From IMG/VR virus record IMGVR_UViG_3300031712_000008, positions 1 to 47,632 of that record: 47,632 bases of DNA; one strand, written 5' to 3'. Positions 9,119-43,601 of this stretch are shown piece by piece. The notes beneath the pieces are model-generated. The model searched no databases. It had not been told where the DNA came from and was given only the letters and a program-made list of their open reading frames with translations. The stretch's first letter is position 1; each line of letters begins with the position of its first letter. A program made the position numbers and the translations under genes. The DNA comes from a virus.

Positions 9119-9370
9119 ATGAGCTACGATGTTCTCCAGGCAGCCAACGGGGACGACGGGGATTTCCGGAAGTTCTCCGACCGGGCGCACGCGATGTGGT
9201 ACTATCATCGCGAGGGATTCATCGTCGGAGTCTTTGAGTGCGAGGCCTGCGGCCACCGGATGGACACGTTCATTGATCCGCGGATCGTGGTCACCCGGTT
9301 CCCGACGTGTGATGCCTGCGGCTTTTTGAAGACTCGGTTCATGTCGGAGATTCCTACTGCGCCTAAATGA
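9119..9370 (+). CDS. Small zinc-ribbon-like protein
   Basis: This 83-residue protein has two CxxC pairs, CEAC at about residues 41-44 and CDAC at about 64-67, separated by about 20 residues. That spacing is typical of a rubredoxin-like or zinc ribbon fold binding one metal ion. It ends in an ATGA overlap with the large terminase gene, so it is produced together with it. Such small zinc proteins in packaging clusters may bind DNA or the terminase, but no specific family is recognised. Confidence 0.75.
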   Translation: MSYDVLQAANGDDGDFRKFSDRAHAMWYYHREGFIVGVFECEACGHRMDTFIDPRIVVTRFPTCDACGFLKTRFMSEIPTAPK

Positions 9371-10965: not shown

Positions 10966-11022
10966 AGATCAGGCTTGACCCGGAAAGTTTCCAGCCCGAT
11001 CCTTTCCCCGAAGGAACATTTT

Positions 11023-11469: not shown

Positions 11470-11474
11470 TCCTG

Positions 11475-21814: not shown

Positions 21815-22564
21815 ATGGCTACAAAGTTTACAGTTTCTGGAAAAGCTCAGGTTGCCCAGGCCTCCCACGAGCGGGAGAAGCGGCTGACCAATCTGGGATC
21901 AGCCTGGAATGAGGTTCGGATTGGATTCATCGGCACGATGGTTCCGACCGCTTCAGATGATGCTGCCGCGAATGCCGAGAGCGTGGCCTATGCGTCCCTC
22001 ATTGACTGGTTTGCGTTCGGGCTGATCAACGATCAGTTGGCCATTCCGGGTCAAGCTGGCTGTCAGTTTGTGGGGGCTTGCTCTGATCCTGTTTATACTC
22101 AAAACCACGACCACATCCGGGTGACCGACAATGCCGCGGGTGCCGGGCATGTGGGCGAGTACGGGCAGTACGACTATGGTGATTTTGCGGCGCTGGCTTT
22201 GAACGGAGCTACCGTTATATCCAAGGGGAGCGGCGCCGTTGGGTCTTTCAACTATCCGATCTATGCCAACGACGGTCGGGGAGCTCTGTTTGCACTCAAG
22301 TATGTCGTGGCCAATCCCGGTGCGGCCAACCAGACGATTGCCCTGTCTTACGCCAATCCAGCGACCGCGGTGGTGACAACTCCGTCGACTGCCAAGGCAA
22401 CGCTGCGCAGCTTGCTCACCGGGGCCGCCTATACTGCCGCGGCCACCCTCAACTGGTACGCGGCTGGAGTGGCGCTTCCACTTCCCGATACTTGGTTTTT
22501 GCGCTCTCCGTTCATCAACAATCGGATTCGCTGGGCGGTCAAGGGAGGCCTCATAATTTCCTAG
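21815..22564 (+). CDS. Tail fibre-like protein, paralogue of 30559..31287
   Basis: This 249-residue protein is Ala/Gly-rich and beta-rich, without a named domain. It is a clear paralogue of 30559..31287: both have TN(L/I)GSAWNE-x-R near residue 28, a mid-region with NGATVI, and end with VALPLPD followed by W and an INNRIR/ATNRFR segment. Each copy follows a gene that ends with the same W/G repeat. Such twin genes in tail clusters are often alternative tip or fibre parts. ATG 21815 is 12 bp after the previous stop. Confidence 0.75.
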   Translation: MATKFTVSGKAQVAQASHEREKRLTNLGSAWNEVRIGFIGTMVPTASDDAAANAESVAYASLIDWFAFGLINDQLAIPGQAGCQFVGACSDPVYTQNHDHIRVTDNAAGAGHVGEYGQYDYGDFAALALNGATVISKGSGAVGSFNYPIYANDGRGALFALKYVVANPGAANQTIALSYANPATAVVTTPSTAKATLRSLLTGAAYTAAATLNWYAAGVALPLPDTWFLRSPFINNRIRWAVKGGLIIS

Positions 22565-22599
22565 TTCAGTTTGAGATTGGTGCCTTACTTTTATCCCCG

Positions 22600-23613
22600 A
22601 TGAACACTGCCCTAGTCTGCGGAGCCGATGGGTTCATTGGCTCTCATCTCGTCGCCCGCCTCAAGGAGGAGGGCTATTACGTCCGAGCGGTTGGCCGCCG
22701 TAGTGGGGAGTTCCTCCCACCCGGAACGAAGCTCGCCAATGAGTACCACACGGCTGATCTGAGGTCCGAGGTGGTCTGTAAAGGTGTTGTCCGCCGCGGC
22801 GGTCTTCCGTTTGATGAAGTCTACCAACTGGCGGCTGAGATGGGTGGCATGGGGTATATTTCTTCCTCTGAGTGTGACATCATGCGAAACAGCTGCCTGG
22901 TGAACCTGCACATGATCCATTCGGCGGCAGAAGCCGGCGTGCGATTGTTTTTCTTTTCGTCCTCGGCGTGTGTTTATCACGACCAGGGGGTTGGAGATCT
23001 GGAACTGGCCGAACGCGATGCGTATCCGGCCTATCCCGACAATGAGTACGGCTGGGAGAAACTTTTTTCCGAGCGGGTGCTTCAGGCCTATGGTCGGAAG
23101 TACCCGATGGAGGTTCGGATTGGCCGGTTTCAGAACACCTACGGGCCTGATTCCCACTGGTCGGGCATTCGGGCAAAGGCTCCCGCGGCCATGTGCCGAA
23201 AGGTGATCGAGTGCCCGCCCGGAGGGACCATTGAGATCTGGGGGAATGGGAGGGCGATGCGGGCCTACACCTTCATCTCCGACACGATCGACGGGATCAG
23301 AGTGCTTATGCAGGCACGCCCGGTTGACGCTATCATGCACGACGAACTTTCGGAGCCGTACAACATTGGCCGGCGTGAGTACGTTTCCGTTGACCAACTG
23401 GCCCAGGAGGTGATTTCAATTTCAGGCAAGACCCTGAAGATCCAGCATGTGCCAGGCCCGGAGGGTGTGCGTAATCGTGGGTTCCGGGCAGATCGCATTG
23501 CTATCCTGGGGTGGGAGTCCAAGGTTTCTTTGCGGGATGGCCTTACGGAAACCTACCGGTGGGTCGAGGAGCAGATCAAAAAACAGTCCCATCCTGCCCA
23601 TGGGAGCTCTTAG
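22600..23613 (+). CDS. GDP-mannose 3,5-epimerase-like sugar epimerase
   Basis: This 337-residue short-chain dehydrogenase/reductase resembles GDP-D-mannose 3,5-epimerase, known from plants and some bacteria, which makes GDP-L-galactose or GDP-L-gulose. The N-terminal NAD site is GADGFIGSH (residues 8-16). The family-specific AAEMGGMGYI lies at 78-87, SSACVY with Cys124 matches the catalytic cysteine, YGWEK (150-154) holds Tyr and Lys, and RAKAPAAMCRK has Lys193 matching the second acid/base. The downstream HVPGPEGVR is also a family mark. Length fits (about 340-380). It overlaps the following glycosyltransferase gene by 14 bp, implying a common pathway. Other NDP-sugar epimerases are less likely. 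Confidence 0.85.
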   Translation: MNTALVCGADGFIGSHLVARLKEEGYYVRAVGRRSGEFLPPGTKLANEYHTADLRSEVVCKGVVRRGGLPFDEVYQLAAEMGGMGYISSSECDIMRNSCLVNLHMIHSAAEAGVRLFFFSSSACVYHDQGVGDLELAERDAYPAYPDNEYGWEKLFSERVLQAYGRKYPMEVRIGRFQNTYGPDSHWSGIRAKAPAAMCRKVIECPPGGTIEIWGNGRAMRAYTFISDTIDGIRVLMQARPVDAIMHDELSEPYNIGRREYVSVDQLAQEVISISGKTLKIQHVPGPEGVRNRGFRADRIAILGWESKVSLRDGLTETYRWVEEQIKKQSHPAHGSS

Positions 23614-25315
23614 CCAGCTGACGATAGTCATTCCCAATTTCCGGCGCGCCGGGCTCCTAGACCGCGCTCTGGCTTCCGTTCGGGCTGCTGGAATTCGCCG
23701 GGTGGTGGTGGCATCCTCGGAGCCTGGGGAGGATGTGATGAAAGTGGTCGATCAGCATCGGGAGGGCTGGGAGTTTTTTCAGGCGGTAATGTTCCCTACG
23801 GATATTGGAGCAAATCGGACCTGGCTGATGGGACTCTACGCGGCCAAGACTGATCGAATTCAGATTCTCTATGACGACGATGTTCTGTTTCCCGAGTACG
23901 GAGAGGTCTACGAGACGTTGATCGCTCCAGCCCTTGACGTGGGAGCCGGTTTTGCTACCTGGGAGGCCAGTTTCTTTGACGAGGATGGGAGCCGGCGCCC
24001 GTCTCGTTACTGGAGCGGACCGACTCGGTTTCTTTTGGCGTCTGAGCTATTGAAAATCGTCGGGATGCCTGGTCGGCTGTCGCTCTCTCCGATCCTCGGG
24101 GTGTTTGACCGGGCGACGGCGATCCGGGCGTGTGAGGAGGCTCAAAAATTCTTGGACCAGCCGGCCAATTATACCCGGCCGGGGATGCTCATCGGAAACG
24201 ATCTTTTGATCTACTACCGGCACATCGAGCGATCGAAATTTTGGTTGTACATAGAGCAACCGCTGTGCGGGTACGGGGTTCATGCGGGCAGTGAGACCAT
24301 CTCCCACGAGCGAGCCGGAAGCCTGAGGCGGCTTACGAACGCCTATGACCTGGCCCGTGTTCAAGGCAGTAAGCCGGCGCCGGATCTCGGGCTTCAGATT
24401 GAGCTTCCCTCTTCCCCGGTTTCAACGACTCGGGAGACGTCTCCGGTGATCCAGCATGTGTTCAGCCATACGATCCCCGGGGACATCGAGACCCTTCGCC
24501 GGTACGGATTTGCCCGATCCACCTGGTACCGGGAATATCGTGCTTCTCCGTCGCGGTGGAGGCCGATTCCGGTTTCCGATGGGCAGCTATCCCGAGACGG
24601 AAAAAGCAGCCTGGGGGACTTGGCGCCGGTGCCTTTCATCCGTGATCTCATTCAGGAGGGGGTGAAAAATTCTGAAGCCGGGGATATTATTTTCCTTACG
24701 AACTCGGATGTCTGCTTTGTACCAGGCATCACCGAGAAGTTGCTTCGGCTGATAGCGAAGCACGGGGCCGCGTTCAGCTACCGGTGGGACTTCCCGGCCC
24801 CCATGCTGGCTCCCGTGTTGACTGAACGTGGACTTGAGCGGGGTACCTGGTACCTGGGGTGCGATGCTTTCGCTTTCTCTGTTGAGTGGTGGGCAAAGAA
24901 TGGCCAGAAGTTCCCTGACATGGTCCTCGGTCGGCATTGCTGGGATACGGTGATGCGCGGCCTGATGAAACTCGAGGGAGGGGTCAATCTTCCTGCGGCG
25001 ATTTATCATGAGGTCCACCGGTCGTTTTGGAATTTCAGGGGCGCGGCGTGGAGAGATTCTCTGGCCGGGAACATCCATAACGCAGCCCTGGCTAGGAAGT
25101 TTTTCCAAGAGTTCAATTGCGGGGGAAACGACTGGCGGACGGCCGAAGATGTTCCGAGAGCAGCCCCGGTTGAGTCGGGAGTCTCGGTTACCCGCCGATC
25201 CAATCGACTCTCCCAGCAGAAGCTGGCCCTTTTGCGGGGTCCCCGGTTTTCCCGGCATCTGGTGGAGTATATGCGCCGGCATCCGGAGATCGTCTGGCCG
25301 GGGGTGAAGGTATGA
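23600..25315 (+). CDS. Two-domain glycosyltransferase
   Basis: This 571-residue protein has two GT-A-like halves. The first begins TIVIPNFRRAGLLDRALASV (residues 8-27), a typical family 2 start, and has the acidic motif YDDDV (91-95) for metal and nucleotide sugar. The second, from about residue 290, contains FLTNSDVCF (Asp370) in the equivalent place, then a WYLGCDAFAFSVEWW-like acceptor region. The last 50 residues are basic. It starts inside the end of the epimerase gene and overlaps the next gene by ATGA. The target may be a virion protein or host surface glycan; the sequence does not tell. Confidence 0.82.
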   Translation: MGALSQLTIVIPNFRRAGLLDRALASVRAAGIRRVVVASSEPGEDVMKVVDQHREGWEFFQAVMFPTDIGANRTWLMGLYAAKTDRIQILYDDDVLFPEYGEVYETLIAPALDVGAGFATWEASFFDEDGSRRPSRYWSGPTRFLLASELLKIVGMPGRLSLSPILGVFDRATAIRACEEAQKFLDQPANYTRPGMLIGNDLLIYYRHIERSKFWLYIEQPLCGYGVHAGSETISHERAGSLRRLTNAYDLARVQGSKPAPDLGLQIELPSSPVSTTRETSPVIQHVFSHTIPGDIETLRRYGFARSTWYREYRASPSRWRPIPVSDGQLSRDGKSSLGDLAPVPFIRDLIQEGVKNSEAGDIIFLTNSDVCFVPGITEKLLRLIAKHGAAFSYRWDFPAPMLAPVLTERGLERGTWYLGCDAFAFSVEWWAKNGQKFPDMVLGRHCWDTVMRGLMKLEGGVNLPAAIYHEVHRSFWNFRGAAWRDSLAGNIHNAALARKFFQEFNCGGNDWRTAEDVPRAAPVESGVSVTRRSNRLSQQKLALLRGPRFSRHLVEYMRRHPEIVWPGVKV

Positions 25316-26031
25316 TCGACATTCTTTACGTTCTTGGGGACGGAAGCAAGTGGGGCAACCAGGAGCTTCGCTTTTCCCTTCGGTCTCTCTGCCGGTTTGC
25401 GTCAGGAATCGGGCGGGTGTTTGTAGTGGGGAAGGATCCCGGCTTCTTGAGAGATTGCACGGTCCTGGAGGTGCCAGACCCGACTAAAACGAAGGAGTAC
25501 AACATCACTTACCAGGTTTTGTGGGCTTGCCAGAACCTGGACATCAGTGAAAATTTTCTCCGGGTCGACGACGATACTTTCTTGGTTGCCCCGATTGGTG
25601 CAGAGAACTACCCGAATTACTGTACCGGGACTCTGGAGGAGAAGATCCGGCGGGCGATCGCCCCGCGGTACCGGACAGCACTCACCCTGACCAGGGACAA
25701 GCTGATTTCACTGGGCAAGCCGACGATGAGCTTTGAGCCGCACGCTCCGATCATTCTAAATCGCACCCGGTTCAGGGGACTGCTCGAGTACTGGGATGAA
25801 AGCCGTCGGTTGAAGTGCGGGTACACCCTGCGTTCTTTTTACTGCAACTACTACGGGGTTCCGGGGACTCCAATGGCTGACTGCAAGCTGCGTTTCCCGC
25901 AGGGGCCGGAGGCGGTTATGGCCAGGATCAAGGATCGGCATGTGTTCTCGGTTTTTGATACGGCAATTCCATTGGGGGTGGGTAAAATCCTGGCGGAGAT
26001 GTTTCCCGAGAAGTGCCGATTTGAGGCTTGA
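25312..26031 (+). CDS. Glycosyltransferase / stealth-type sugar transferase
   Basis: This 239-residue protein resembles stealth-type sugar-phosphate transferases and related GT-A enzymes. An N-terminal strand-turn LYVLGDGSKWGNQELRFSLR (residues 5-24) is followed by VFVVGKDP, then YNITYQVLWAC and the metal-binding FLRVDDDTFL (82-91, Asp86-88). The layout matches the conserved regions 1 and 2 of that family, but the protein is shorter. It is the last gene of the sugar cassette, coupled by ATGA to the two-domain transferase. Alternative: a family 2 or 32-like glycosyltransferase. Confidence 0.72.
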   Translation: MIDILYVLGDGSKWGNQELRFSLRSLCRFASGIGRVFVVGKDPGFLRDCTVLEVPDPTKTKEYNITYQVLWACQNLDISENFLRVDDDTFLVAPIGAENYPNYCTGTLEEKIRRAIAPRYRTALTLTRDKLISLGKPTMSFEPHAPIILNRTRFRGLLEYWDESRRLKCGYTLRSFYCNYYGVPGTPMADCKLRFPQGPEAVMARIKDRHVFSVFDTAIPLGVGKILAEMFPEKCRFEA

Positions 26032-26064
26032 CGGCCATGAAGGCCGTGACATCTAATCGGGCTT

Positions 26065-26535
26065 ATGACCAACTGGATTAGGAGCCTGCGCCCCTCGTTT
26101 TTGACAGTGATTTTTCCAACTATCGTGCTGGCCATCCTTGGGGGCTTGTGCACGCTTCTGGTTTTTTCCGGGAAGTCATACGCGACCAACTTTGTGGACA
26201 ATCATCCGGCGATCGTTGAGACGCGGGATTTTATGAAGGAGAGCAAGGCTGATCGGGTTAAGCTGAACCTGAACGTCCACGACATCCAGCTTTCGCTGGT
26301 CAATTTGACCGACATTGCCAAGAGCAATAACGAGGCGCTTGGTACGGCGGCGAACATGCAGATCGAAAACGCCCGGCAGATCACGGCGTTGGCTGAGCAG
26401 ATCCGGGCTTTGAGCTCCCAGGAGGCTCTCGACCATGTGGCGGCTAAGGATCGTGAGGATCATATCGAGGCGTCCTCGGTCGATCGGGACAACCGGCTGC
26501 AGGACAGGCTCGACAAGGTACCTATTAAACGCTGA
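26065..26535 (+). CDS. Membrane-anchored coiled-coil protein
   Basis: In this 156-residue protein the basic N-terminus is followed by one strong membrane segment at about residues 12-36 (LTVIFPTIVLAILGGLCTLLVF). The rest is soluble and mainly helical with coiled-coil character, ending in a highly charged tail. This topology occurs in inner-membrane spanins and in some tail or ejection-associated proteins. No outer-membrane partner lipoprotein is seen nearby, so a spanin role is only a possibility. It stands between the sugar cassette and the large tail gene. Confidence 0.72.
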   Translation: MTNWIRSLRPSFLTVIFPTIVLAILGGLCTLLVFSGKSYATNFVDNHPAIVETRDFMKESKADRVKLNLNVHDIQLSLVNLTDIAKSNNEALGTAANMQIENARQITALAEQIRALSSQEALDHVAAKDREDHIEASSVDRDNRLQDRLDKVPIKR

Positions 26536-26580
26536 GTTCGGGTTTGACCTTTCTGGCTGGAGGGAAAAGAGTTCTACCCC

Positions 26581-28704
26581 ATGGCCGACCTCACTGCGGA
26601 CATCCTTCAGATCTATGATTACGGCACTCGGCTGGCGTCCCCCGCCCGTCGCATTACGGCCTGCAGTTTTCTGGACAAGGTGATTTTTGCGCAGCCGGAC
26701 GCTCCTTTGCTGGCCTGGGCCGGCTCCGGCCAGGCGTCCGAAGTTCCAGGGCTGATCCCCGGTGAGCGATTCTGGGGAGTCTATGCTTTCAAGGACATCC
26801 TCCTGTTGTGGGCGGGGAGCCGCCTGAAGTGGAGCGACAGTAACGATTTCACGACCTGGATCCCGGTGGCAAAAACCGCTTCTTCCTTTGTGTTCATTTT
26901 GACTCAGCCGTTCATTGTTCCGGCGCTTGGGGTTGAGAGCGGCATGGTCCAGGTAGACCGAGACACGACCGGCCTTGTTGCCGGCCAGTTTCTCCGTCTC
27001 GACGATGCTCCGTACTACACGTTTTTTCAGGTGGTGTCGGTGGTTCCGTCCATCGGGGTTGATGGGCAACCCTCTGGGTTTGTCCAGACCGTCGGACCGC
27101 TTGCAACCAAGGACTTGTTCCTGCAGGCCTTTGTGCCCTATGTGAAGGGAAATCGGGTCGCTTACGACGGCAGTCTGGCAACTCTCGAGGTGCAGAAGGA
27201 CGCAGTTCCTGTAAGTTCTGAGGTACTTCAGGTGGCGGAGGATTTCACCAATCCAATGCCGGGCGATACGATCCAGATCAAGCTCACCTCCCAGCCATCC
27301 ACATCCCCAGGGGGGTATGTCTCGATTGGGGACTCGGTGGTTCCCGGCCAGGATATTTTTGCAGTGAGCTCGGTGGATCCGGCAGCCAAGACCATGGTGA
27401 TTCAGCGAACGGGGATTGGGGCCGTCTCTTCTCCGCTGGTCCACACTGCCGGCCAGTTCATCGTGGCGCAGCCTTTCGTGCGGGTGAAGAACCTTTCTTC
27501 GACTACGGTGGCCACCGGGTCGTTCTTGAACCGGTTGAAGGAGGTGCACGGGTTCACGGTGAAGTCTGTCCGGTTGACCGGGGCTGTTGCGGCCGGCCAG
27601 TCCTACCCCGTCGGAACTCAGATGCTCACGTTGGATGCCAACGAGGCTGGAGAGATGGACAATTCGGGGGCCAGTATCAACGGTGAGATCCTTCAGGTCA
27701 CGAGTCTGGGGGAGCTTGGGTATATTCTCAAACATCGGTCGATCCAGTCGATGCAGTATGTTGGCCCCGACCAGGGGGTTTTCTATACGCGCGCTGAGAT
27801 CACGGGTGAGGGGCTTCTCAGCCGCTATGCCTTTGTCAAGGTGGGTCTCGATGCAATTTATTTCTGGGGTAACCGGGAGATTTACAAGTACTCCGGAGGA
27901 AACCAGCTGGAGCCGATCGCGATGCAGTTCACCAAGCAGCTTTTCAAGGAACTGGACCGGTCACGCGCCGACCAGATTCTTGCCTTCCATAAGGAGAGCC
28001 AGAAGGAGATCTGGTTTGTGTATCCGAGCAACCTTCTCCCGAATGTTGGGCCGCTTCGGGTTTTCATTTACAACTACATCGAGAATTCCTGTACGATCGA
28101 CGATTATCCGGCGTCACTTCAAGGCCTCACAGCGGTTGCCCGGGTGGCTTGGGATACAGCCATTGCCTGGGCTTCGGCGCTTGGGACCTGGCTGAATCCT
28201 CTTTCGTGGCCGGTGTTGGCAACCTGGGCCAGTCTTCACGCGGATGTGGCGCCTTCCTACGACCTCATCGGTGCCGAGAGTGGTGAGTCGGATGAGGGAT
28301 CAGGCGACATCGAGACGACGGCTGGGCTGGTCCACGGGGAGGAGTGTTACAGCCGGTTTGGGCAGCCGTATCTTTCCCTCTGGGAGTCCGCTGACATGGA
28401 CAACGGAGATCCGGCCGCGTGGAAGTATCCCGATACGATCATTCTTTCGCTGCAGATCAAAGGCGTTCCTCCTCCGCTGGCCACGGTCAATGTTTATCTG
28501 GGGACCAAGCTGAATACTGATGACCAGGTTGTTTGGCACGGCCCCAAGGCGGTGCGGGTTGATGCTCTCAGTGGAAAGCCGACCAAGGTTAACATCCCTT
28601 GTGCGGGGAAGATCCTGCGACTCAGAATTGACTCCAACACAGCCGATCTGCAGTGGCGGGTTTCTCAGTTCCGGATTCTTGGCCGGCTGGGAGGGACGTA
28701 CTGA
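26581..28704 (+). CDS. Tail nozzle/hub-like protein
   Basis: This 707-residue, beta-rich protein is about the size of the large tail tube/nozzle proteins of short-tailed phages. Segments such as FWGVYAFKDILLLWAGSRLKWSD (about residues 64-86; here split as two motifs, VYAFKDILLLW and LKWSDSNDFTTW) resemble the propeller strands of those proteins. A second motif, AIYFWGNREIYKYSG, follows near residue 425. At about residues 563-577 an acidic insert (AESGESDEGSGDIE) interrupts the fold. The C-terminal 120 residues form a separate beta domain. The N-terminus looks truncated relative to nozzle proteins, and a matching N-terminal region sits in 19638..20036. Confidence 0.65.
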   Translation: MADLTADILQIYDYGTRLASPARRITACSFLDKVIFAQPDAPLLAWAGSGQASEVPGLIPGERFWGVYAFKDILLLWAGSRLKWSDSNDFTTWIPVAKTASSFVFILTQPFIVPALGVESGMVQVDRDTTGLVAGQFLRLDDAPYYTFFQVVSVVPSIGVDGQPSGFVQTVGPLATKDLFLQAFVPYVKGNRVAYDGSLATLEVQKDAVPVSSEVLQVAEDFTNPMPGDTIQIKLTSQPSTSPGGYVSIGDSVVPGQDIFAVSSVDPAAKTMVIQRTGIGAVSSPLVHTAGQFIVAQPFVRVKNLSSTTVATGSFLNRLKEVHGFTVKSVRLTGAVAAGQSYPVGTQMLTLDANEAGEMDNSGASINGEILQVTSLGELGYILKHRSIQSMQYVGPDQGVFYTRAEITGEGLLSRYAFVKVGLDAIYFWGNREIYKYSGGNQLEPIAMQFTKQLFKELDRSRADQILAFHKESQKEIWFVYPSNLLPNVGPLRVFIYNYIENSCTIDDYPASLQGLTAVARVAWDTAIAWASALGTWLNPLSWPVLATWASLHADVAPSYDLIGAESGESDEGSGDIETTAGLVHGEECYSRFGQPYLSLWESADMDNGDPAAWKYPDTIILSLQIKGVPPPLATVNVYLGTKLNTDDQVVWHGPKAVRVDALSGKPTKVNIPCAGKILRLRIDSNTADLQWRVSQFRILGRLGGTY

Positions 28705-29825
28705 TGGCTCTTAGATCCTCAGTTATTGCCGACGCCCCTCGGAAGGTGTCGAAGGATTCTTCTTCCGAGCTTGGGCGCGTAGAGAACGAGGTGACGCTCT
28801 GGGCTCGGACGGTGTCTTTGGCAATCCGGTCGCTTCAGAATGCCCAGCCGGCAGCGGCAGCGGCTCCGGTTGCGGCATCTACGCCGGCGGCAGCCGCGGC
28901 CACGGTAATAAACCCTCCTTCGCTTCCTCCGACGCCCGCACCCCCGCTGGACAAAAATCTTTTGGCGATTGCCGCGTTGATTGGTGCGGGGTTCCTTCAG
29001 AAAACTGTCGAGGGGGTCTGGAGGTTTAATACCAACGTGGCGACGAAAGACGACCTGGCGGGCATTGGGGGCGGTACACCAGGGGCCAACTCAATCCTCT
29101 TTACTCAGATCCAGAAGATTCCGGGGATGACCATCCTCGGGAACGATAGTGAGTCGTCTGGGGACATCATGGAGCTCACCATTCCGGAGATTCTTGGGAT
29201 GCTGGCTTCGACGGATGTGGCACTCGGGGGCGGATCTCCGTCAGACCTTTTGGTACCCACTCAGAAAGCGGTAAAAGCCTATGCGGACCAGCTGCTGGCT
29301 GCAAGCGAGGCGATGATCTTCAAGGGGGTTCTGAATTGTTCAGGAAATCCTGATTATCCGGCCGCCACAGCCGGGTGGGTATACAAGATTTCAGTGGCGG
29401 GCCGGATCGGTGGAGTTTCCGGCCCCAAGGTCGAGGTGGGGGACACCGTCTATTGCATTACCACCAATGTCGGTGGAACGGATGCTTCGGTTGGAATGGA
29501 TTTTGTGATTGTCCAGGCCAACATCGATGGCTATGTAATCGGCCCTGCTTCAGCTGTGGACCTTCGGGTGGTGGTTTTCGATGGAGCCACCGGGAAACTG
29601 ATCAAGGACGGTGGAATTCTTCTTTCGGCGCTCCTGCAGGCCGGACTGATCACTGGTTCCGGCCTGACCATGAGCAACAATCGTTTGCTGGGCCGGTGGG
29701 ACGCAGGAACGGGGGCTCTCGAGGAGGTCCAACTCGGGACCAACCTTTCTTTGGCCGGGGGGTTTCTATCCGCTGCGAGTGCCGGGGCCACCCTTGACAT
29801 TCGGGATGTTTGGCTTTTTGAATAG
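28704..29825 (+). CDS. Tail fibre/baseplate-type protein
   Basis: The first 60 residues of this 373-residue protein form a charged helix; residues 48-90 are Ala/Pro-rich linker. The remainder looks like a fibre shaft with the typical segment PSDLLVPTQKAVKAYAD (about residues 187-203), often found in phage tail fibres. A short acidic insert, GNDSESSGD, lies near residue 143. The start overlaps the previous stop (TGATG), so it is coupled to the tail hub gene. Probably a side-fibre or its adaptor. Confidence 0.72.
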   Translation: MALRSSVIADAPRKVSKDSSSELGRVENEVTLWARTVSLAIRSLQNAQPAAAAAPVAASTPAAAAATVINPPSLPPTPAPPLDKNLLAIAALIGAGFLQKTVEGVWRFNTNVATKDDLAGIGGGTPGANSILFTQIQKIPGMTILGNDSESSGDIMELTIPEILGMLASTDVALGGGSPSDLLVPTQKAVKAYADQLLAASEAMIFKGVLNCSGNPDYPAATAGWVYKISVAGRIGGVSGPKVEVGDTVYCITTNVGGTDASVGMDFVIVQANIDGYVIGPASAVDLRVVVFDGATGKLIKDGGILLSALLQAGLITGSGLTMSNNRLLGRWDAGTGALEEVQLGTNLSLAGGFLSAASAGATLDIRDVWLFE

Positions 29826-29839
29826 TTTCCGTCTTATCC

Positions 29840-30205
29840 ATGGCAACACCCACACATGGCGTACTGGTAGCGGCGCTTGTTCAGCAGCTTGCGGCGGCAG
29901 CTGCGGCGGTCTATGACAACCCGTCTTCCACCACCACCTATATCAAGGGGTGGAGGTTGTTTAATTCTGGATCAAACCCAGAGCTAGTTAAGATCTATGT
30001 CGTGCCGGCGGCGGGCGGCCCGGTACTGGGTGTAGCCGCGGCAGCTAACCAGGTTCTCGAGTATACGCTTCAGGCCAAGGAATCTTTGACAGAGGATTTT
30101 CCTGCCATGGGCATTGTCCTTGGTACCCAGCACGATAGCATCCAGGCCATGGCGGCTGACGCTTCTACGGTTAATCTTGTCCTCTTTGGTGATACAGCCG
30201 TCTAA
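29840..30205 (+). CDS. Small beta-rich tail protein
   Basis: This 121-residue Ala/Val-rich protein has an N-terminal hydrophobic helix (LVAALVQQLAAAAAAVYD), followed by a beta-sandwich-like part (TYIKGWRLFNSGSNPELVKI). No family is recognised. It sits among fibre genes, 14 bp after the previous stop with a CTTATCC leader, and is probably a structural tail component. Confidence 0.7.
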   Translation: MATPTHGVLVAALVQQLAAAAAAVYDNPSSTTTYIKGWRLFNSGSNPELVKIYVVPAAGGPVLGVAAAANQVLEYTLQAKESLTEDFPAMGIVLGTQHDSIQAMAADASTVNLVLFGDTAV

Positions 30206-32200: not shown

Positions 32201-33592
32201 ATGAAATCTGTAGTACGGTCGGGGCTTAATCCGGAACTCGTGGCCAGGATTTGGGCACTCCGGGGAAAGATGAGTGACCGGGAGATCCGGATTGAGATCC
32301 GGCGCCTGGCGGAAGTGGGCCGGGCCAGGGGCGATGACATCTTTCGTCAGGTCTTTCGAAAAACCGATACCGGGGCCGAGCCCCCTCCGCCCCTCAAGAG
32401 TGCCTCCGTTTCCGAGACCGGAGATTCAGTGATTGCCGAGTCAGTGGATCCCCGCGTTCACACGGTCGAGGAGTTGCTCAAGCTTTGCAAGGTTGACCTG
32501 GCCATCTGGGAGGTTGAGAGATTTTTGGTCAACAAATGGGAGGTGGCGATGGCCGAGCCGGCGACGACGGTCGGGGGTGCCGGGAAGCAAGCCCGGCTTG
32601 TTCGCGGCAAGGGTGGCCGGGTGCATACCCTTTGGACCCGGGGAAGCAACGAGCCACTTCATGAGCCGCTTTTCCAGGTAAAGGTGTGGCTGAAGCGTCG
32701 GCGGGAAGCTGACGCAGTCGACATCATCAAGTTCTTCCAGGATGAGGTTGCACGGGTGAAGGCGCCTTACTTCACTTCTGGTCTCAAGTATCTCGCTGAA
32801 CCCACGAAGGGGCTGCTCTACGAAATTTGTTCGCCAGATCTCCATCTCGGAAAACTGGCGTGGAAGCCCGAGGCCGGGGAGCATTGGGATTCGAAACTGG
32901 CGATCGAGGCTGATAAAAAAGCCACAGGCGCCCTGGTGTCCTATGTTCCGGTCGACCGGATTGCGAGGTTCCTGCTCCCGATCGGCAACGATTTCTTCAA
33001 CGTGGACAACTCCAACGAGACGACCACGGGCGGCACGCCGCAGCGCGAAGATGGACGCTGGCAGAAGTCTTTCCGGGCCGGCTGTGCGCTGATGGTCGAG
33101 AAGATCATCAGTCTCGCCAGCATGGCCCCGGTGGATGTGGTGGTGGTCGCGGGTAACCACGATCACGAGCGGTGCTTCTATCTCGGGGAATACCTTACGG
33201 CCTTCTTCAGGAATCATCCGGGAGTTACGATCGACAATTCCCCGAAGACCCGGAAGTACTATGTGTGGCAAAAGATCCTGATTGGCATGTCTCACGGGTC
33301 TGAGGAAAAGATCACCGAGCTTCCGCTCATCATGGCCACTGAGCAACCCGCGGCGTGGGCTCAGGCCACGGCCTACAAGGGATTCCAGGTCGGCCATTTT
33401 CACCGGTCGGCGCTGCAGAATTTCAATCTTGAGGACATCAAGGGTGTCGAAGTGCAGACGCTTTCCAGTCTCTGTCCTCCGGATGACTGGCACGCGAAAC
33501 GTGGGTTTGTTGGCAGCATTCGTCGGGCCGAGGGTCTCCTGTTTGACGGTGAAAACGGACTCGTGGCCAAGTACTACTTCAACATGAAATGA
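32201..33592 (+). CDS. Calcineurin-like metallophosphoesterase
   Basis: This 463-residue protein has a complete set of metallophosphoesterase motifs in the C-terminal 260 residues: SPDLHLG with Asp213 and His215, IGNDFFN with Asp264, AGNHDHER (317-324), GMSHGS with His365, and VGHFHR with His399 and His401. The N-terminal 50 residues look like a helix-turn-helix-type segment (ARIWALRGKMSDREIRIEIR). Related phage proteins are thought to be DNA or nucleotide phosphoesterases. Location in a virion gene cluster is notable and may mean it acts on DNA during entry. It overlaps the following gene by ATGA. Confidence 0.85.
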   Translation: MKSVVRSGLNPELVARIWALRGKMSDREIRIEIRRLAEVGRARGDDIFRQVFRKTDTGAEPPPPLKSASVSETGDSVIAESVDPRVHTVEELLKLCKVDLAIWEVERFLVNKWEVAMAEPATTVGGAGKQARLVRGKGGRVHTLWTRGSNEPLHEPLFQVKVWLKRRREADAVDIIKFFQDEVARVKAPYFTSGLKYLAEPTKGLLYEICSPDLHLGKLAWKPEAGEHWDSKLAIEADKKATGALVSYVPVDRIARFLLPIGNDFFNVDNSNETTTGGTPQREDGRWQKSFRAGCALMVEKIISLASMAPVDVVVVAGNHDHERCFYLGEYLTAFFRNHPGVTIDNSPKTRKYYVWQKILIGMSHGSEEKITELPLIMATEQPAAWAQATAYKGFQVGHFHRSALQNFNLEDIKGVEVQTLSSLCPPDDWHAKRGFVGSIRRAEGLLFDGENGLVAKYYFNMK

Positions 33593-35945: not shown

Positions 35946-38900
35946 ATGGACGACCCCTATGCTACGCCAGGTGCCCCGTCGCCGGCTTCTCTGAGGGCGC
36001 CGGGCGCGGATCCTTATGAGGATCCGTATGCCGACGATCCGTATGCGGAAAAGCCCAGCCTTCGAAAGCGGGTAGGCGATTATTTGTCCAAACAGCAGTC
36101 CCAGGCTAACCCGGCCTGGATGCGCTACCTGGACCCGGCGTACCTGCTGGACCAGGCTGGCAAAGGTGCCGAGACGGCCACGGATGCCGCGGTGGAGAAG
36201 ATCCGGCCGATCAGCGAGGCGGCTGACAAGGCGGTCCAGGACATGCAGTCGCCTGATCGCGGGCTGCCCTCCCGGGTTGCTGGCGCCGTACTTTCCTCCG
36301 TTCCCAGCGCCGATCAGTCTTTGGTGCCTGTTCCCCGCATTTCCCAAGTGCCGGGGCAGTCCTATCTCAATCCGCTGATCTACCCGGCAATAGCCTGGAA
36401 CGATGTGGCTGTCCCTCTGGGCGAGATGGCGACTGGCCGCACCCTGGCAACTGTGGGCGCCTTTAGCCCCGCGGCAGTTGCCGAGGCTATTCCTGGCCTG
36501 GCTGGGTTGAGTGCCAAGGCTTTGCGCATGGCAGCCGAGGCCAAGTTTGGCAGTGACATGGCTGAATCCACCTGGAACTCCATCAAACAGGCCTGGCAAG
36601 CTCTTCATAATCCGAATCTTAGCCCCCAAGAGACTGGTGAGGCCGTTGGCAAGCCAGTGACGCCGTTCATGATGACCGCTGGGCTGGTCGGCCATGTTGT
36701 TTCTGAGACCATGCCGCCGGGAGGGGCCACTCCACCCCCTATTTCAGCCAAGGCAGCCGCGCAGGCCAGGATCCAGGCCAGGGCTGGAGGCCCAGAGGCC
36801 GGCATTGAGACCGCACCGGAAGCCGCCAAGGTGGCTCCCGCGGCTCCCGTTTTGCTCGATCGGACGATCGACGAGTTCAAGCCGGGCGACAAGTTCACCG
36901 CTGGTAAGACTGAGTACACTGTCGGATCTTCAGATCCCGATGGTACGGTTACGGTTACAGGATCAGACGGTGTTGAGGTCCAGCTTCCCAAGGGTACGAA
37001 AATGCAGGTCAACGCGCCCAAGGTTCAGGAAACTCCTTACTCACCAGCAGTTAAGCCAACCCCCACGGTTGCCGGGGGTCCTACGACCAAGGTTGAGGCC
37101 ACGCCGGCGCCCGAGGGATCCACCAGCACGGCCGGGTCCACGCTCAAGCCAGAGGCCCAGGTGGGCCGGGAAAAGGTCCAGGACGCCGCGGCGGCCCCGC
37201 CGGCCACTCCGCCGATCGCGGAAGGCTCCCGTGTGGCCGTTGAGTCGCCTTCTGATCGGGCCAAGAATGCGGCTGAGCCGGTTGCAGGCAAGGCGGCTCA
37301 GATCCAGCAGGCGGTCCAAACGGAGGGGGTGGATTACCGCTATTCCGTCCAACGGCCCCAGACTGTCGAGGGGCGCACCTACCCCGGTGTCACCCAGGTT
37401 GACGTAATCGACCCGAAGGCCGAGCGTCCGCTGGTTTCATCGAACGTGGCGGATCTGAATGCCGCTGGTGCCGGAATCCCTGATGTACCCGACTGGGTGC
37501 CGCAGGGCCAGTTTACTCGTGCACAGATCGAACAATTCATCAAAGAGGGTCCTCCTAATGCCACTGGAATCAAAAGCCCAAGTCCGGAAATTCTTCGCAA
37601 CGCCCAGCCTGCGTCACCTGGTCCACAAGTGGCAGGCGGAGTCCCCGGTGTCGATCAAGGCGCTGCCGGAGCACGTCCGCCAGGAGAAGTCACACAAACC
37701 GTCCGTCGGGAGCCACCTGGCGCGGGGGCCGAAGGCGTAAAGCCGTCGATCCTTTGGGATTCCAAAAAGGGGATTGGGAACACCCCGAACGGAGCAGCGG
37801 TTGGGCATTTCGGCTTTGAAACGACTATGTCTCCAACTGACTTCCTTGCTCTAGCGGCCAAAGGTGGAGACCTAGAAACAGCAAGTGCTGCCGGCATAGA
37901 AACAGTAATTCGAGGCGGGAAATCAATAGCTCCTCCGATCCTGGCGGCCGATTGGGACCCGGTTGACAAGGTCTGGAAGGTAACTTCCCATGAGGGACGA
38001 AACCGGTCGATTGCAATTCAGAACATCGATCCTGCAGCCAAGATGCCTGTGCAAATTATGCCCAATAAGGGGCTGAGGGCACGAGATGTTACAGATGAGA
38101 TGAAGGCTGCTCCGATCATTGCTGAAGGAAAGAAAACGAATCGATTTCAACCTGGCCCGGGGACCGAAGGAGTAGCTCAGACGCCGGCATTTTCTCAAAA
38201 GCTGTTTCGAGGCACTGGGGCAACTCCCGAGGAAGTCTATGGTCCGGAAGCGGTGAAGGAAGGCCGGGCTGTTCCGATTCTCGGGAAGGGAAGCTACTAC
38301 GCGTTTTCCGAGGAGGACGCGGCCAACTACGGCAAGGTCAGCCAGCACCAGGTTGAGCTCAAGAACCCGCTGGTGATTTCTTCCAGTGGTCAATGGTACG
38401 ATCTGCTTGATGCGGCTAATGCCCAGCATCTCAACAGCCGGGCGGCGCTGTTCTACAAAGAGCCTGGCAAGATCCCGGAAGCAGCCGAGCGGCTCAAGGC
38501 CTATGTCCAGTCTCAGGGTCATGATGGGATTATTGTCCGGAACACCGAGCAGCAGAAGGCGCTCCGGGAGTCCTTTGGCCACGACACGGTGGTTTCCTAC
38601 AACGAGGGTCCTCCGCAGCCCAAGATCTCTCCCAAGCAGGCGGCCCAGACCCGCATTACCCAGCGGGCCACGGCCGACAAGATCCAGACCGCCACGGAGA
38701 ATGGCGTCGCCAGTACGCCGTTTGAACCGGGCAAGCTTCCCGATGGTGCGGCGGTCACCCGGCCGTCCGAGACCTACCAGAAGGCGCACGAGGCCAGCGG
38801 TGGCAAAGGCAACCTCTGGGTCCGGCAGTCTCCGGTCCAGTCCAACGCCGGCCGCACGCTCATGGTCCAGTTTGCCTCGGATGTCCTCTACCCGCCGACG

Positions 38901-41900
38901 GGTGAGAAGGGCGAAGCCGGGGAGTACTACGACAAGCTCTACGAAAAGCGCGCCGGCGTGGGCTACAAGCGCATGGCCGATTTCTGGGAGGTCCCCCAGT
39001 GGCAGGCCGTTCTCTCGCACAACCTGGGGGACAAGGCAGACCTGTATGTTGTGCGGGATCTCGAGGAGGCCAAGAAGTTCCTCAAGAGCTCGGGCTACGA
39101 CCACGTTGCATTCTCCGTTTTCGAGCCGGCCAAGGCCCATGTGCTGGAGCTCGCTCCTTCGATCGATGGCAAGATCGACCTGGGTGGCTATCCGAACACC
39201 AGCACCGATGAGATCACTTCGAAGTTTCCGAATGCCACCCGGTTCGACACGGTGCCGGATTACGTCACGAGCCTGGGCCATGACTACATGCCTGGTTACG
39301 ACTACCGCCTCTACAAGAACAGTGAGGTGATCCCGCGGCTCGAGCTCTCGACCGGCTGCCGCCACTTCTGCAAGCTCTGCGTGATGGAGCGGGTCGTGAC
39401 TGAGAAGCCGGCCAGTGAGGTGGCCCAGCAGGTCGATTCCTTTGCAGATCTCCACGGCGACCTGGTCTACCTCAATGACAAGACCTTTGGACAGGCCTCC
39501 AATTACAAGGATTTGCCGAAACTGGCGGAGCAGATGCGGGCAAACAATCCGAACTTCAAGGGCTTTGTCATTCAGACCACGGCTGCACAGATGAAGAGCT
39601 TCACGCCGGAGTTTCTCAAGGCCTCGGGCATCAAGTTTGTCGAGATCGGCGTTGAGTCGTTCAACGATTCAGTGCTGAAGCTGCAGCGCAAACCGGCCAC
39701 CGAGGCGTTGATCCAGGCGGCGGCTGACAAGCTGAAGGCAGCTGGCATCGCGATGATTCCCAACCTTGTCATCGGGCTTCCGGGCGAGACCAGTCTTACC
39801 TATGATCGTACCCTCTCCTGGCTGAAGGCCAACGAGGACAACATTTCCCACGCCAATATCTACAACCTGGCAGTCTATGAAGGCAGCGACCTGGCCAAGG
39901 AGATCACGGCCAAAACGGCGGCCGATGCCGATGAAAACGTGGGTGGCAAGAGCTTCCGCACTCCGGAAGAACTGCAGGCCGATGAGGACTTTTCCCGCGA
40001 CGTCTACGCCTGGGCCAGCGGGGTGCTCGACAAGACCCCGGCCAGCCTGCAGTCCGCCAAGGAAGGCGCCCAGCTGGAACTGCCGATCGAAGCCACCCCG
40101 GAGAAAGCGGTCCAGGCCGTCAAGTCGCCGGATCTCCCCGACCGGCCGGCGCTCGTGGCCGAACTCAACAGGGCCGGACATGCCGGGGAAGAGGTCGTCA
40201 AGGGTCTCGAGTCCGGGGATCCCAAGGCGCTCGTGGAAGAGGCCTCCCGCGGCAATGGGTCGGCCGGCCGGATGCAGTCGGCCTACTTCCAGGCGCGTAA
40301 ACTGGGGCTCATTTCCGACACGGCCAACCGGGCTTTCCGCACGCAGCTGCTGGTGCAGAATCCGGACCTTTTCCGCCTGATCGACGGTGCTGAGAAATCC
40401 CAGGGCATCGGGATCGTGGCCGTGCCCAGCGTCCTGGATCCGCCGGCCCTGCTGAAGAAGCTTTCGAGCGCGGCCGAGATCGCCTGGACGGCTGCCCGGG
40501 AGGCGCTGTTCAACACCACGGGTGGAGTCAGCCGCCAGGTGTTCGAACTTTTCCACCAGATGCGCGGGAGGAACGCGGCGGCCCTGGATACCGTTTCATC
40601 TCTGGCCTATGGGCCGGGTGGAGTTAGCCCGAGCTTCGGGGGCAAAATCACCGAGGAGCAGATGACCGCGGCAGCAGCGTATCTCGACCCCCGCTTTCTC
40701 AATCGGTTCTCCAAAGAGGGGGCCGCCGCAGTCCGGGCGGTCATGGCCCAATTGACCGATGCCCAGAAGGCGGCTCTTGATGCGGGCCGGGATTTCATTA
40801 CCCACGGGTCCGAAACCATGACCGAACTGGGGATCACCAAGGAGGGGCTTTCCGAGGTCATCCGCAACAACTACGGCCGGTACGTCAGCCGGTCCTACAA
40901 GATTTTCAGTCGTGAGCAGGGGCCGGCCTACATTCGCGCGCTGCGCACCCCAGGGACTCCGGAGTATCAGACCCGCTACCTGCCCACTATCAAGGCGCTG
41001 GCGGCCGACGGAGACATTGAGCAATCGAAGATCTTTGTTGATCGAATGCTGGACACGATCGCCCAGAAGAACGATCTCCCGCGCCGGGTCATCGACAATC
41101 TGATTCGAGACGAGGTAAAGCGTTTGGGGTCCAACATCACGCTGAACCGCACGCTGCGGGAGGACTCGATTCGTAATCTCTATGGCGAGATCGTCGATCC
41201 GATCCAGCAGCTGGCCCACACCATCATGAAGCAGCAGGAGTTGATCAACACCTGGATGTTTCGAAAGCAGCTGGCCGATAACCTGGGCGAGCAGGGCCTT
41301 GTGCGGACGATCGATCCGGACCAGATCGCCCGGGATTATGCCGATCACCAGAAGGAGATCGTCGACGAAGAGGTTGCCAAAGCAGTGAAGGCGGAGACCA
41401 TGCGCCGGGCCGACACAGATCAACCCATGACTCCGCAGCTGGCCAAGGCGATCGAGGCCACCGTGCGGGATCGCAACCCGTTGTTTTCCCAGAAGGTCCG
41501 GACCCGGTCGCAGGAGCTTATGTTCGAGGCCCGGTCCAACGGCCGCACGCCTGATTTCTCCGCCGCCACCCTGAAGGCCGAGCGCGAAGTCTACTCGGAA
41601 CACCAGGAGCAGGCGCTGGAGTGGTATCGGGACTCCGGCCAGATGGAGCCGGGTGAGTCCCTCTTCGCGCTGGATCCCGCCTACCGGGCCGGAATGCAGA
41701 TCGACAGCAGCCGGAACATCAACGACCCCTTTGCCAACCTCGTGGTCACCAAGGCGGCGCGGCCGTACTTGATGGAGTACACAAAAATGCTTTCGAAGGG
41801 GATGAACCTCTTCCAGGAGGCAACCCAGCTGGTCAACACGGGAGCCACCGTGCTGGCGCCGATGACGGTGGCCCGGAATCTCTTCACCTCTCTGCAGCCA

Positions 41901-43601
41901 ATTATCTCCGCTGGCAATGCACTGCGGCTGGGGACGAGTTATGGCCGAGAAGCCGTTGTCACGGCCCAGGCCATCTGCAACCACTTGATCTTTGGTGCCA
42001 AGCTGGACCCGAAGCTGGAGCCGTTGCTCAAGGAATGCTTTGAACAAGGTGCCACTGCCCGGGGCGCGCTCAGCGGCGACACGGCCAACCTGATCACTTC
42101 CTTCCGGGACGTCTACAAGCGCACCAGCAAACTTATGCGCGAGGTGAAGGAGACCGGCCAGCCGTCGCTCGAGCCGATCACCTCGAGACTGCCGGGAATG
42201 CGCCCGGAGGAGGCGGTGACTAAGATCGCCTGGGGCAACGAGTCCCGGCTCTCCCCGTTGCTGCCCTATGAGGCGATCGCCCGGCACGCCCAGGATCTGT
42301 ACCGCGGCGGCGATGATTTTCCGAAGATCATCAACTACTTGATCGAAAAGCAGAAGGCATCCGAGGCGTACCCGGACGATCCGGCGCTTGCCCTGTCGGA
42401 GGCGCAGAGGAAATTCCGGGCTACGAACTACGACTACGGCCGGATCATCCCGATCGTGCGGCTGGCCCGGCAGGTTCCGATCATCGGGCTGTTCACCTCC
42501 TTCGTCAGCGAGTCTTACCGGGTGGTGGCCAACTCCTTTGGCATGGGCCTGCAGGACATGGCCCAGGGCATGAAGACCGGCAACGCGGCCCTCTTGCGCC
42601 AGGGATCCGAGCGGCTCATCGGCACCTCGATCGCGGTGGGCGGCCTGGCGGCTTACTGCGAGACCAGCCGCACCGCGGCCGGTCTGTCCTACGAGGATGA
42701 GAAGACTCTCCGCAAACTGCTTCCAGCCTGGTCCAACAATTCCCACCTCTACTGGTACAAGGCTGCAGACGGCCACGTTCAGTACATCAACTTCGGAAAG
42801 AACGAGATGTTCTCGGCCGTCAGCCAGCCAGCGAGCGCGCTGCTGTCCCGGCTGCAACACGGGGACGTGATGAATGATCCCTCGGCCACGCTGGGCAAGG
42901 AGGCGTGGACCCAGGTGCAGGAGGTCCTCAAGCCGTTCATCAGCCCGCAGATCTTTTCCCAGGCCTTGCTCGATGTAGTGGCCGGCCACTCGGCAACCGG
43001 CAAGCCGATCTTTGCGCCGGACGACGGTCCCGGTGATCGCGCGGTGAAATCGATGCAGTACATCGCGGCGCACGCACTGAACCCCGGCGTCGCCCGGAGC
43101 GCCTGGGCTTCGATCCAGGGTGCCGCCGGAGCCACCAACCGGTTTGGCCAGCCGCTGAAGGCTGAACAGCCGATCCTCAACCTGGCCGGCCTGGGAGACA
43201 TTGACATGAAGCAGTCCTTCATGTTTTACGCGCTCCGGGGGCAGAGGGATATGCAGGCGATCGAATCCGAGTTCCGTACCATGAGCCAGGACCTGTCGAC
43301 CGGCGTCACCCTGGACAAGGTCTACGCCAAGCTGCAGGACGTGGAGGAACGCCGCAAGGCCTACTACCTCGACATCCAGCGGGCGGCGCTCGTGGCTCTG
43401 AAGACCGGAGTATCCCAGGAGGATCTTTTCACCATTCTGCAGCAACAGGATTTCCAGCGGCGCGACATCGGGACGTTCCTCGAGAACGGAAAATATCTTC
43501 CGTTCGTTCCGGCCAAGAGCACGTTCCTGCGGGCGGAACAGATTGGCCGGCCGCTGGATCCGGACAGGGTTCTGTCGATCGTCGGACAGTACGCTCCGTA
43601 A
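35946..43601 (+). CDS. Giant polyvalent virion protein with ParB-like, ADP-ribosyltransferase-like and radical SAM domains
   Basis: This 2551-residue protein starts with DPY repeats (ADPYEDPYADDPYAEKP). A ParB-like segment carries HEGRNRSIAI at 682-691. An ADP-ribosyltransferase-like domain spans about 752-890 (FRGTG at 754-758, GSYYAFSEEDAANYG, GHDGIIV at 858-864). Residues 919-1137 are alpha/beta, possibly B12-binding-like. A radical SAM domain follows (CRHFCKLC, Cys1138, Cys1142 and Cys1145 for the 4Fe-4S cluster; FVEIGVES at 1231-1238; VIGLPGET at 1275-1282). The last 1100 residues are helical and resemble giant ejection proteins. It is last in the late block and follows two internal virion genes. 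It is probably packaged and injected into the host; this is inference. Confidence 0.85.
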   Translation: MDDPYATPGAPSPASLRAPGADPYEDPYADDPYAEKPSLRKRVGDYLSKQQSQANPAWMRYLDPAYLLDQAGKGAETATDAAVEKIRPISEAADKAVQDMQSPDRGLPSRVAGAVLSSVPSADQSLVPVPRISQVPGQSYLNPLIYPAIAWNDVAVPLGEMATGRTLATVGAFSPAAVAEAIPGLAGLSAKALRMAAEAKFGSDMAESTWNSIKQAWQALHNPNLSPQETGEAVGKPVTPFMMTAGLVGHVVSETMPPGGATPPPISAKAAAQARIQARAGGPEAGIETAPEAAKVAPAAPVLLDRTIDEFKPGDKFTAGKTEYTVGSSDPDGTVTVTGSDGVEVQLPKGTKMQVNAPKVQETPYSPAVKPTPTVAGGPTTKVEATPAPEGSTSTAGSTLKPEAQVGREKVQDAAAAPPATPPIAEGSRVAVESPSDRAKNAAEPVAGKAAQIQQAVQTEGVDYRYSVQRPQTVEGRTYPGVTQVDVIDPKAERPLVSSNVADLNAAGAGIPDVPDWVPQGQFTRAQIEQFIKEGPPNATGIKSPSPEILRNAQPASPGPQVAGGVPGVDQGAAGARPPGEVTQTVRREPPGAGAEGVKPSILWDSKKGIGNTPNGAAVGHFGFETTMSPTDFLALAAKGGDLETASAAGIETVIRGGKSIAPPILAADWDPVDKVWKVTSHEGRNRSIAIQNIDPAAKMPVQIMPNKGLRARDVTDEMKAAPIIAEGKKTNRFQPGPGTEGVAQTPAFSQKLFRGTGATPEEVYGPEAVKEGRAVPILGKGSYYAFSEEDAANYGKVSQHQVELKNPLVISSSGQWYDLLDAANAQHLNSRAALFYKEPGKIPEAAERLKAYVQSQGHDGIIVRNTEQQKALRESFGHDTVVSYNEGPPQPKISPKQAAQTRITQRATADKIQTATENGVASTPFEPGKLPDGAAVTRPSETYQKAHEASGGKGNLWVRQSPVQSNAGRTLMVQFASDVLYPPTGEKGEAGEYYDKLYEKRAGVGYKRMADFWEVPQWQAVLSHNLGDKADLYVVRDLEEAKKFLKSSGYDHVAFSVFEPAKAHVLELAPSIDGKIDLGGYPNTSTDEITSKFPNATRFDTVPDYVTSLGHDYMPGYDYRLYKNSEVIPRLELSTGCRHFCKLCVMERVVTEKPASEVAQQVDSFADLHGDLVYLNDKTFGQASNYKDLPKLAEQMRANNPNFKGFVIQTTAAQMKSFTPEFLKASGIKFVEIGVESFNDSVLKLQRKPATEALIQAAADKLKAAGIAMIPNLVIGLPGETSLTYDRTLSWLKANEDNISHANIYNLAVYEGSDLAKEITAKTAADADENVGGKSFRTPEELQADEDFSRDVYAWASGVLDKTPASLQSAKEGAQLELPIEATPEKAVQAVKSPDLPDRPALVAELNRAGHAGEEVVKGLESGDPKALVEEASRGNGSAGRMQSAYFQARKLGLISDTANRAFRTQLLVQNPDLFRLIDGAEKSQGIGIVAVPSVLDPPALLKKLSSAAEIAWTAAREALFNTTGGVSRQVFELFHQMRGRNAAALDTVSSLAYGPGGVSPSFGGKITEEQMTAAAAYLDPRFLNRFSKEGAAAVRAVMAQLTDAQKAALDAGRDFITHGSETMTELGITKEGLSEVIRNNYGRYVSRSYKIFSREQGPAYIRALRTPGTPEYQTRYLPTIKALAADGDIEQSKIFVDRMLDTIAQKNDLPRRVIDNLIRDEVKRLGSNITLNRTLREDSIRNLYGEIVDPIQQLAHTIMKQQELINTWMFRKQLADNLGEQGLVRTIDPDQIARDYADHQKEIVDEEVAKAVKAETMRRADTDQPMTPQLAKAIEATVRDRNPLFSQKVRTRSQELMFEARSNGRTPDFSAATLKAEREVYSEHQEQALEWYRDSGQMEPGESLFALDPAYRAGMQIDSSRNINDPFANLVVTKAARPYLMEYTKMLSKGMNLFQEATQLVNTGATVLAPMTVARNLFTSLQPIISAGNALRLGTSYGREAVVTAQAICNHLIFGAKLDPKLEPLLKECFEQGATARGALSGDTANLITSFRDVYKRTSKLMREVKETGQPSLEPITSRLPGMRPEEAVTKIAWGNESRLSPLLPYEAIARHAQDLYRGGDDFPKIINYLIEKQKASEAYPDDPALALSEAQRKFRATNYDYGRIIPIVRLARQVPIIGLFTSFVSESYRVVANSFGMGLQDMAQGMKTGNAALLRQGSERLIGTSIAVGGLAAYCETSRTAAGLSYEDEKTLRKLLPAWSNNSHLYWYKAADGHVQYINFGKNEMFSAVSQPASALLSRLQHGDVMNDPSATLGKEAWTQVQEVLKPFISPQIFSQALLDVVAGHSATGKPIFAPDDGPGDRAVKSMQYIAAHALNPGVARSAWASIQGAAGATNRFGQPLKAEQPILNLAGLGDIDMKQSFMFYALRGQRDMQAIESEFRTMSQDLSTGVTLDKVYAKLQDVEERRKAYYLDIQRAALVALKTGVSQEDLFTILQQQDFQRRDIGTFLENGKYLPFVPAKSTFLRAEQIGRPLDPDRVLSIVGQYAP

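Follow-up and report, generated by a model that had tools for sequence, protein, structure and literature searches.

A radical SAM module of an uncurated subfamily embedded in a giant polyvalent-type phage protein and probably delivered at infection

The final gene of the late block in virus record IMGVR_UViG_3300031712_000008 (47,632 bases, from an environmental sample; hereafter the window, meaning the whole stretch of DNA, which was searched in six frames) encodes a giant protein that contains a Rossmann domain followed by a radical S-adenosylmethionine (SAM) core. This module is a new enzymatic addition to a polyvalent-type, probable virion protein and comes from an uncurated radical SAM subfamily. 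Its radical SAM fold and conserved cluster ligands recur in giant proteins that are otherwise unrelated, and in relatives it is repeatedly linked to a domain resembling 8-oxoguanine DNA glycosylase (OGG). As a tentative account, we propose that the enzyme is delivered at infection and acts on a nucleic-acid base. Polyvalent proteins, giant multi-enzyme phage proteins in late-gene position that are predicted to be injected, have already been described (Iyer et al., 2017; PMC5512222); the novelty therefore lies in the radical SAM module and its partner, not in the idea of injected enzymes. Radical SAM chemistry brings about changes that few other enzymes can make, and a radical SAM enzyme as virion cargo was found in none of the open-access papers searched: no system combining such an enzyme with polyvalent, ejection or injected proteins emerged from the open-access full-text literature, and PMC5512222 uses neither 'radical' nor 'glycosylase' in its main text. 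An earlier reading of the letters alone (the sequence-only reading) had been aware of no described system with this architecture, which agrees with the literature searched, but the module is no one-off, being present in at least 68 further viral records. The giant open reading frame (ORF) and its principal parts are as follows, in window coordinates.

35946..43601 (+): giant ORF, 2551 amino acids, one open frame and final gene of the late block, with linkers separating the domains
38733..40070 (+): Rossmann (B12-type fold) plus radical SAM module, residues 930-1375, from homology boundaries and AlphaFold2; E value of its own profile in the window 2.7e-178
38733..39332 (+): N-terminal five-stranded Rossmann (B12-binding-like) domain, residues 930-1129, zero cysteines, from AlphaFold2 strands and Foldseek
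38979..39002 (+): DFWEVPQW, signature motif of the family, from the family alignment
39342..39821 (+): radical SAM core, PF04055, residues 1133-1292, from Pfam
39357..39380 (+): CRHFCKLC, predicted [4Fe-4S] ligand loop with Cys1138, Cys1142 and Cys1145 (CxxxCxxC), from the alignment, coordinates checked
39636..39659 (+): FVEIGVES, radical SAM core motif, from the alignment, coordinates checked
39768..39791 (+): VIGLPGET, radical SAM core motif, from the alignment, coordinates checked
42276..43565 (+): C-terminal region resembling virion proteins, residues 2115-2516, from homology to gp123 of phage phi18:3 and to phrog_22602

The core matches PF04055 with an E value of 1.4e-8 and 35.5 bits, above the curated cut-off of 29.5, and this is the sole Pfam match within the giant protein. 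An AlphaFold2 model of residues 930-1375, built from 37 sequences, has a predicted local distance difference test score (pLDDT) of 93.5 and a predicted template-modelling score (pTM) of 0.90, and consists of a Rossmann domain followed by the radical SAM core. Together with fold matches to radical SAM enzymes in the Protein Data Bank (PDB), the Pfam score and the model lead us to reject a chance motif and confirm the genuine radical SAM domain that the sequence-only reading had proposed; the single late-block ORF and the positions of its three motifs were exactly as that reading had placed them, and the domain limits obtained by homology lie close to its own. Conservation of the cysteines in homologues had been named beforehand as a test. 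All 37 aligned members retain the three cluster cysteines, and each also matches PF04055; no other cysteine column of the alignment reaches 30%. Members reach down to about 30% identity with the cluster cysteines and core motifs still invariant. Within DFWEVPQW the E, the P and the second W are invariant, and the F and the first W are conserved at 90% or more. The module is predicted from alignment and model to bind a [4Fe-4S] cluster and to cleave SAM.

The five strands of the Rossmann domain occupy positions 42-47, 102-107, 124-129, 147-152 and 168-170 of the modelled segment. Foldseek matches in the PDB have E values down to 1e-15, with template-modelling (TM) scores of only about 0.50-0.59, and the best of them (AprD4, CysS, MgmA, TokK, TsrM, OxsB and MiaB) cover both domains. 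Class 1 of the cobalamin-dependent radical SAM enzymes is characterized by a five-stranded Rossmann domain that precedes the core (PMC13331322), and this arrangement is seen in the model and in the Foldseek matches. The B12-binding family PF02310, by contrast, has no match in the window module, and among relatives it is matched by three of 37 at E ≤ 0.01 (best 3.7e-5), with L009 and L033 below the cut-off; a B12-binding domain is not recognizable from sequence at that cut-off. The earlier suggestion that residues 919-1137 are B12-binding-like thus survives at the level of the fold and not at that of the sequence family. The module resembles OxsB, TokK, TsrM and AprD4 in its Rossmann domain N-terminal to the barrel and in Foldseek matches of near full length; it differs in its modest TM-scores, in reaching no subfamily cut-off and in being nearly restricted to phages. 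On the modelled arrangement it perhaps uses cobalamin. AprD4, a close fold match, is not known to contain it.

Comparison with the curated NCBIfam models likewise sets the module apart. It scores 46.8 bits against TIGR04479 (PhpK-type P-methyltransferases), where the cut-off is 600, and falls far under every other radical SAM subfamily cut-off; the module therefore belongs to no curated subfamily tested. The top-scoring models, all below cut-off, describe B12-dependent radical SAM enzymes with small-molecule or lipid substrates. Methylthiotransferases of the MiaB/RimO type share the core and appear among the sequence-profile matches (RimO/TM_1862) as well as in Foldseek, but their identity was rejected: the module has no cysteine N-terminal to the cluster loop and no further conserved cysteine column, and the TRAM domain was undetected in Pfam scans. 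Since the N-terminal domain is devoid of cysteine, a second cluster is not expected.

Scanning viral contigs with the module segment returned seven relatives, and alignment-based scans raised this to 45 and then to 68 loci. The 71 scored copies, which include one from Rhizobium smilacinae and two contigs counted twice (L003/L010 and L008/L043 are each the same contig), comprise 49 in ORFs of more than 600 amino acids (up to 4974), 20 standalone proteins of 367-549 amino acids and two cut by contig ends; counted by contig, the embedded copies number 47. Giant relatives share with the window protein only the module of about 440 residues, the remainder being unrelated. The Rhizobium copy was the single cellular one in a scan of one genome per species across some 85,000 prokaryote species, and searching 398 Pseudomonadota genomes by profile recovered that member alone. 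With one prokaryote copy against 68 viral loci, the family is mainly viral within what was searchable, and the module was absent from the cultured phage records searched. Plasmids yielded a single partial radical SAM protein, 27% identical and beside an agmatinase gene, which was taken as a generic radical SAM match. An unrooted maximum-likelihood tree groups the embedded forms together and places one standalone clade inside their cluster, and the module thus seems to pass between both states. On two jumbo-phage contigs from different families (L070, 9228-10028; L071, 1256-2062), the gene immediately upstream of a standalone module encodes a D12-class DNA adenine methylase, and in L070 the two genes overlap. 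By eye, a NUDIX domain directly follows the module in L006, at about residues 1379-1513 of the ORF at 7205-11749.

The recurrent partner in relatives is DUF7178, which was first met beside standalone modules and within giant proteins and which Pfam lists as of unknown function. Of 58 distinct module loci (window excluded, Rhizobium included), 28 have it no more than 10 kb away according to an iterated profile, in every case on the strand of the module (L019, L045 and L063 are among the positive ones); at 19 loci it occupies the same ORF, always C-terminal to the module. A Pfam search of 50 whole records found it in 24, in four of them elsewhere in the contig. In a control for enrichment at matched sensitivity, with the same tblastn query on both sides, four further loci of 57 were positive, compared with 44 among 50,697 phage records (binomial probability 2e-7, uncorrected for shared ancestry). 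DUF7178 occurs in 44 cultured phage records, among them phages of Prochlorococcus, Synechococcus, Roseobacter and Mycobacterium. Its six best profile matches in the PDB are all N-glycosylase/DNA lyases (best E value 2.5e-4), and its AlphaFold2 model (pLDDT 91.2) finds the OGG of M. jannaschii (MjaOGG) as top Foldseek match, with a probability of 0.96 and a TM-score of 0.57. An invariant lysine and aspartate stand 20 residues apart (Lys-x19-Asp). Glycosylase/lyases of the HhH-GPD family carry a comparable Lys/Asp pair, and both the OGG-like fold and the conserved residues are present in the DUF7178 domains of the relatives. DUF7178 therefore looks like a predicted DNA glycosylase/lyase of the OGG type, similar to the OGG1, OGG2 and AGOG 8-oxoguanine DNA glycosylase/apurinic-apyrimidinic lyases in profile, fold and Lys/Asp pair; its catalytic role and any base specificity are putative, and it is missing from the window record. 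No paper in the literature searched names DUF7178, to which a likely fold can now be assigned.

The layout of the giant ORF, with domains separated by linkers, looks polyvalent in type, and neighbouring late-block genes give matches to a terminase, a portal/head-tail adaptor, a major head protein and a virion structural protein. Gp123 of Cellulophaga phage phi18:3, the record of which is annotated from experimental tandem mass spectrometry (MS/MS) proteomics, is a homologue of residues 2115-2516, and residues 2117-2301 match phrog_22602, a virion structural protein. The C-terminus had been likened earlier to an ejection protein; homology to an MS/MS-annotated phage protein supports a virion character for it. 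Pfam domains in 19 sampled giant relatives included ART-PolyVal (three), LPD38 (two), NUDIX (two) and RadC (one), which places those giants among the polyvalent proteins; GNAT domains also occur in giants carrying the module. In the window protein Pfam detects neither ART-PolyVal nor LPD38, the LPD38 search being silent in controls too, and the tool-supported parts are only the module and the virion-type C-terminus. Among genes upstream of other giants, PHROGs clearly recognized virion structural proteins only in L047. A giant ORF of 2183 amino acids fills the corresponding slot (23643-30191, -) in a related phage (record G054, L087-L089), the terminase and head protein of which are 65% and 72% identical; it has no detectable similarity to the window giant and no radical SAM domain. 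From these sequences the position looks like an exchangeable cargo slot.

We strongly infer that the window protein is packaged in the virion and injected. Virion-carried enzymes that act at infection have precedents: DarB of phage P1 is a head component protecting the injected DNA, and Alt of phage T4 is an ADP-ribosyltransferase carried in the virion that acts on host protein at infection (PMC5512222). The window protein would resemble both in being carried and in acting at infection, on DNA (as DarB) or host protein (as Alt), but their chemistry is that of a methyltransferase or an ADP-ribosyltransferase and not of a radical SAM enzyme. It resembles polyvalent proteins in its giant size, late position, predicted injection and probable multi-domain form, and module-bearing relatives have the ART-PolyVal, LPD38 and RadC domains; radical SAM and OGG-like domains would extend the catalogue in PMC5512222.

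In the mechanism that we propose, a giant virion protein of polyvalent type, housing a mobile Rossmann plus radical SAM module with one [4Fe-4S] cluster, would be packaged alongside the phage DNA and enter the cell at infection. As a protein crossing the phage tail must unfold, the radical SAM domain would refold in the host, where it would obtain its cluster, and perhaps cobalamin, and draw on host SAM. It would then carry out a radical modification, most likely of a nucleic-acid base, ahead of phage gene expression; this might mark or repair the incoming phage DNA, or alter nucleic acid of the host. In relatives the module may cooperate with the OGG-like glycosylase/lyase domain on the same polypeptide or from a nearby gene. 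Because this partner recurs, a nucleic-acid base appears the most likely target, and the earlier list of candidates (host RNA, protein, lipid or phage DNA) narrows towards nucleic-acid bases. If so, phages may deliver radical chemistry, perhaps directed at DNA bases, upon infection; more broadly, recurrent fusion to giant virion-type proteins and the glycosylase-like partner point to an unknown nucleic-acid or host modification at that stage. A more specific version, which we consider doubtful, is an infection-delivered base-editing kit in which a radical SAM base modifier and an OGG-like lyase that excises bases would form a marking and excising pair, telling the nucleic acids of phage and host apart during the first minutes after infection; many relatives have the two fused, and others encode them in nearby separate genes. 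As a separate observation, a sub-threshold Pfam match to S-adenosylmethionine lyase lies at 4692-5423 (-) of the window (E value 0.0064); if this match is genuine, SAM, the co-substrate of radical SAM enzymes, would be degraded by the phage as well.

Several points weigh against delivery at infection and action on a nucleic-acid base. Homology to gp123, at 23% identity, extends over only about 400 residues of the C-terminus, and packaging of the window protein is a prediction. No DUF7178 lies within 10 kb at 30 of the 58 distinct loci, and even the iterated profile finds none in the window record, which may be incomplete; the domain is also absent from the terminase-related phage contigs, which are few and partial. 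With the window and about half of the loci lacking the partner, the link to DNA holds by family only and the nucleic-acid target stays a matter of inference. The enrichment counts share ancestry, and the Foldseek E value of DUF7178 is weak (0.49). The Rhizobium member (L009, 9941-11227) adjoins genes for an ABC permease, a class II aldolase, an aldehyde dehydrogenase and a cobalamin adenosyltransferase, and since the sole cellular member sits in a metabolic operon, the ancestral substrate may be small. This setting favours the chief rival, in which the injected enzyme acts on a protein, peptide, lipid or metabolite of the host (compare PhpK, HpnJ, AprD4 and methyltransferases of ribosomally synthesized and post-translationally modified peptides) and reprograms the host as T4 Alt does, the OGG-like domain being independent cargo. 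Polyvalent proteins characteristically mix unrelated activities, also in conjugative elements (PMC5512222), and the best-scoring curated models act on small molecules or lipids. Every one of those models, however, lies far below its cut-off, and the recurrence of the OGG-like partner in distinct lineages, in the same ORF or a nearby gene on the same strand, exceeds what free mixing of cargo would suggest, so that we regard a host target as a serious contender but a less probable one.

It is unlikely that the late-made giant acts instead in the virion-producing cell, repairing or modifying phage DNA during packaging, with its own packaging incidental. The late-block position of the gene would suit such a role, and standalone phage homologues need not be virion proteins, but an enzyme at work only before packaging would gain nothing from being embedded, in many lineages, in giant proteins with polyvalent domains of the injected type. 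Very improbable, finally, is a catalytically dead radical SAM fold retained as a structural or binding domain. Oxygen-labile clusters would be awkward in free virions, yet the invariance of the cluster cysteines and core motifs described above speaks against loss of activity. Delivery at infection with a nucleic-acid base as target thus remains the account that we prefer.

Upstream of the module, one further segment of the giant ORF was noted by eye only.

38202..38630 (+): candidate ADP-ribosyltransferase-like segment, residues 753-895, confirmed by no tool

Searches with Pfam ART-PolyVal, against the PDB and with phmmer were all negative for this segment, and a ParB-like reading of residues 596-745 gave nothing significant with phmmer against the fetched loci. 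Neither residues 600-930 nor the C-terminal 1133 residues have close relatives among the viral contigs. Elsewhere in the window, the late block contains a nicotinamide adenine dinucleotide (NAD)-dependent nucleotide-sugar epimerase gene (22492-23613, +; PF01370, E value 3e-37), and a gene matching a phage DNA repair exonuclease family (32201-33592, +; phrog_704, E value 1.2e-55) lies shortly ahead of the giant gene.

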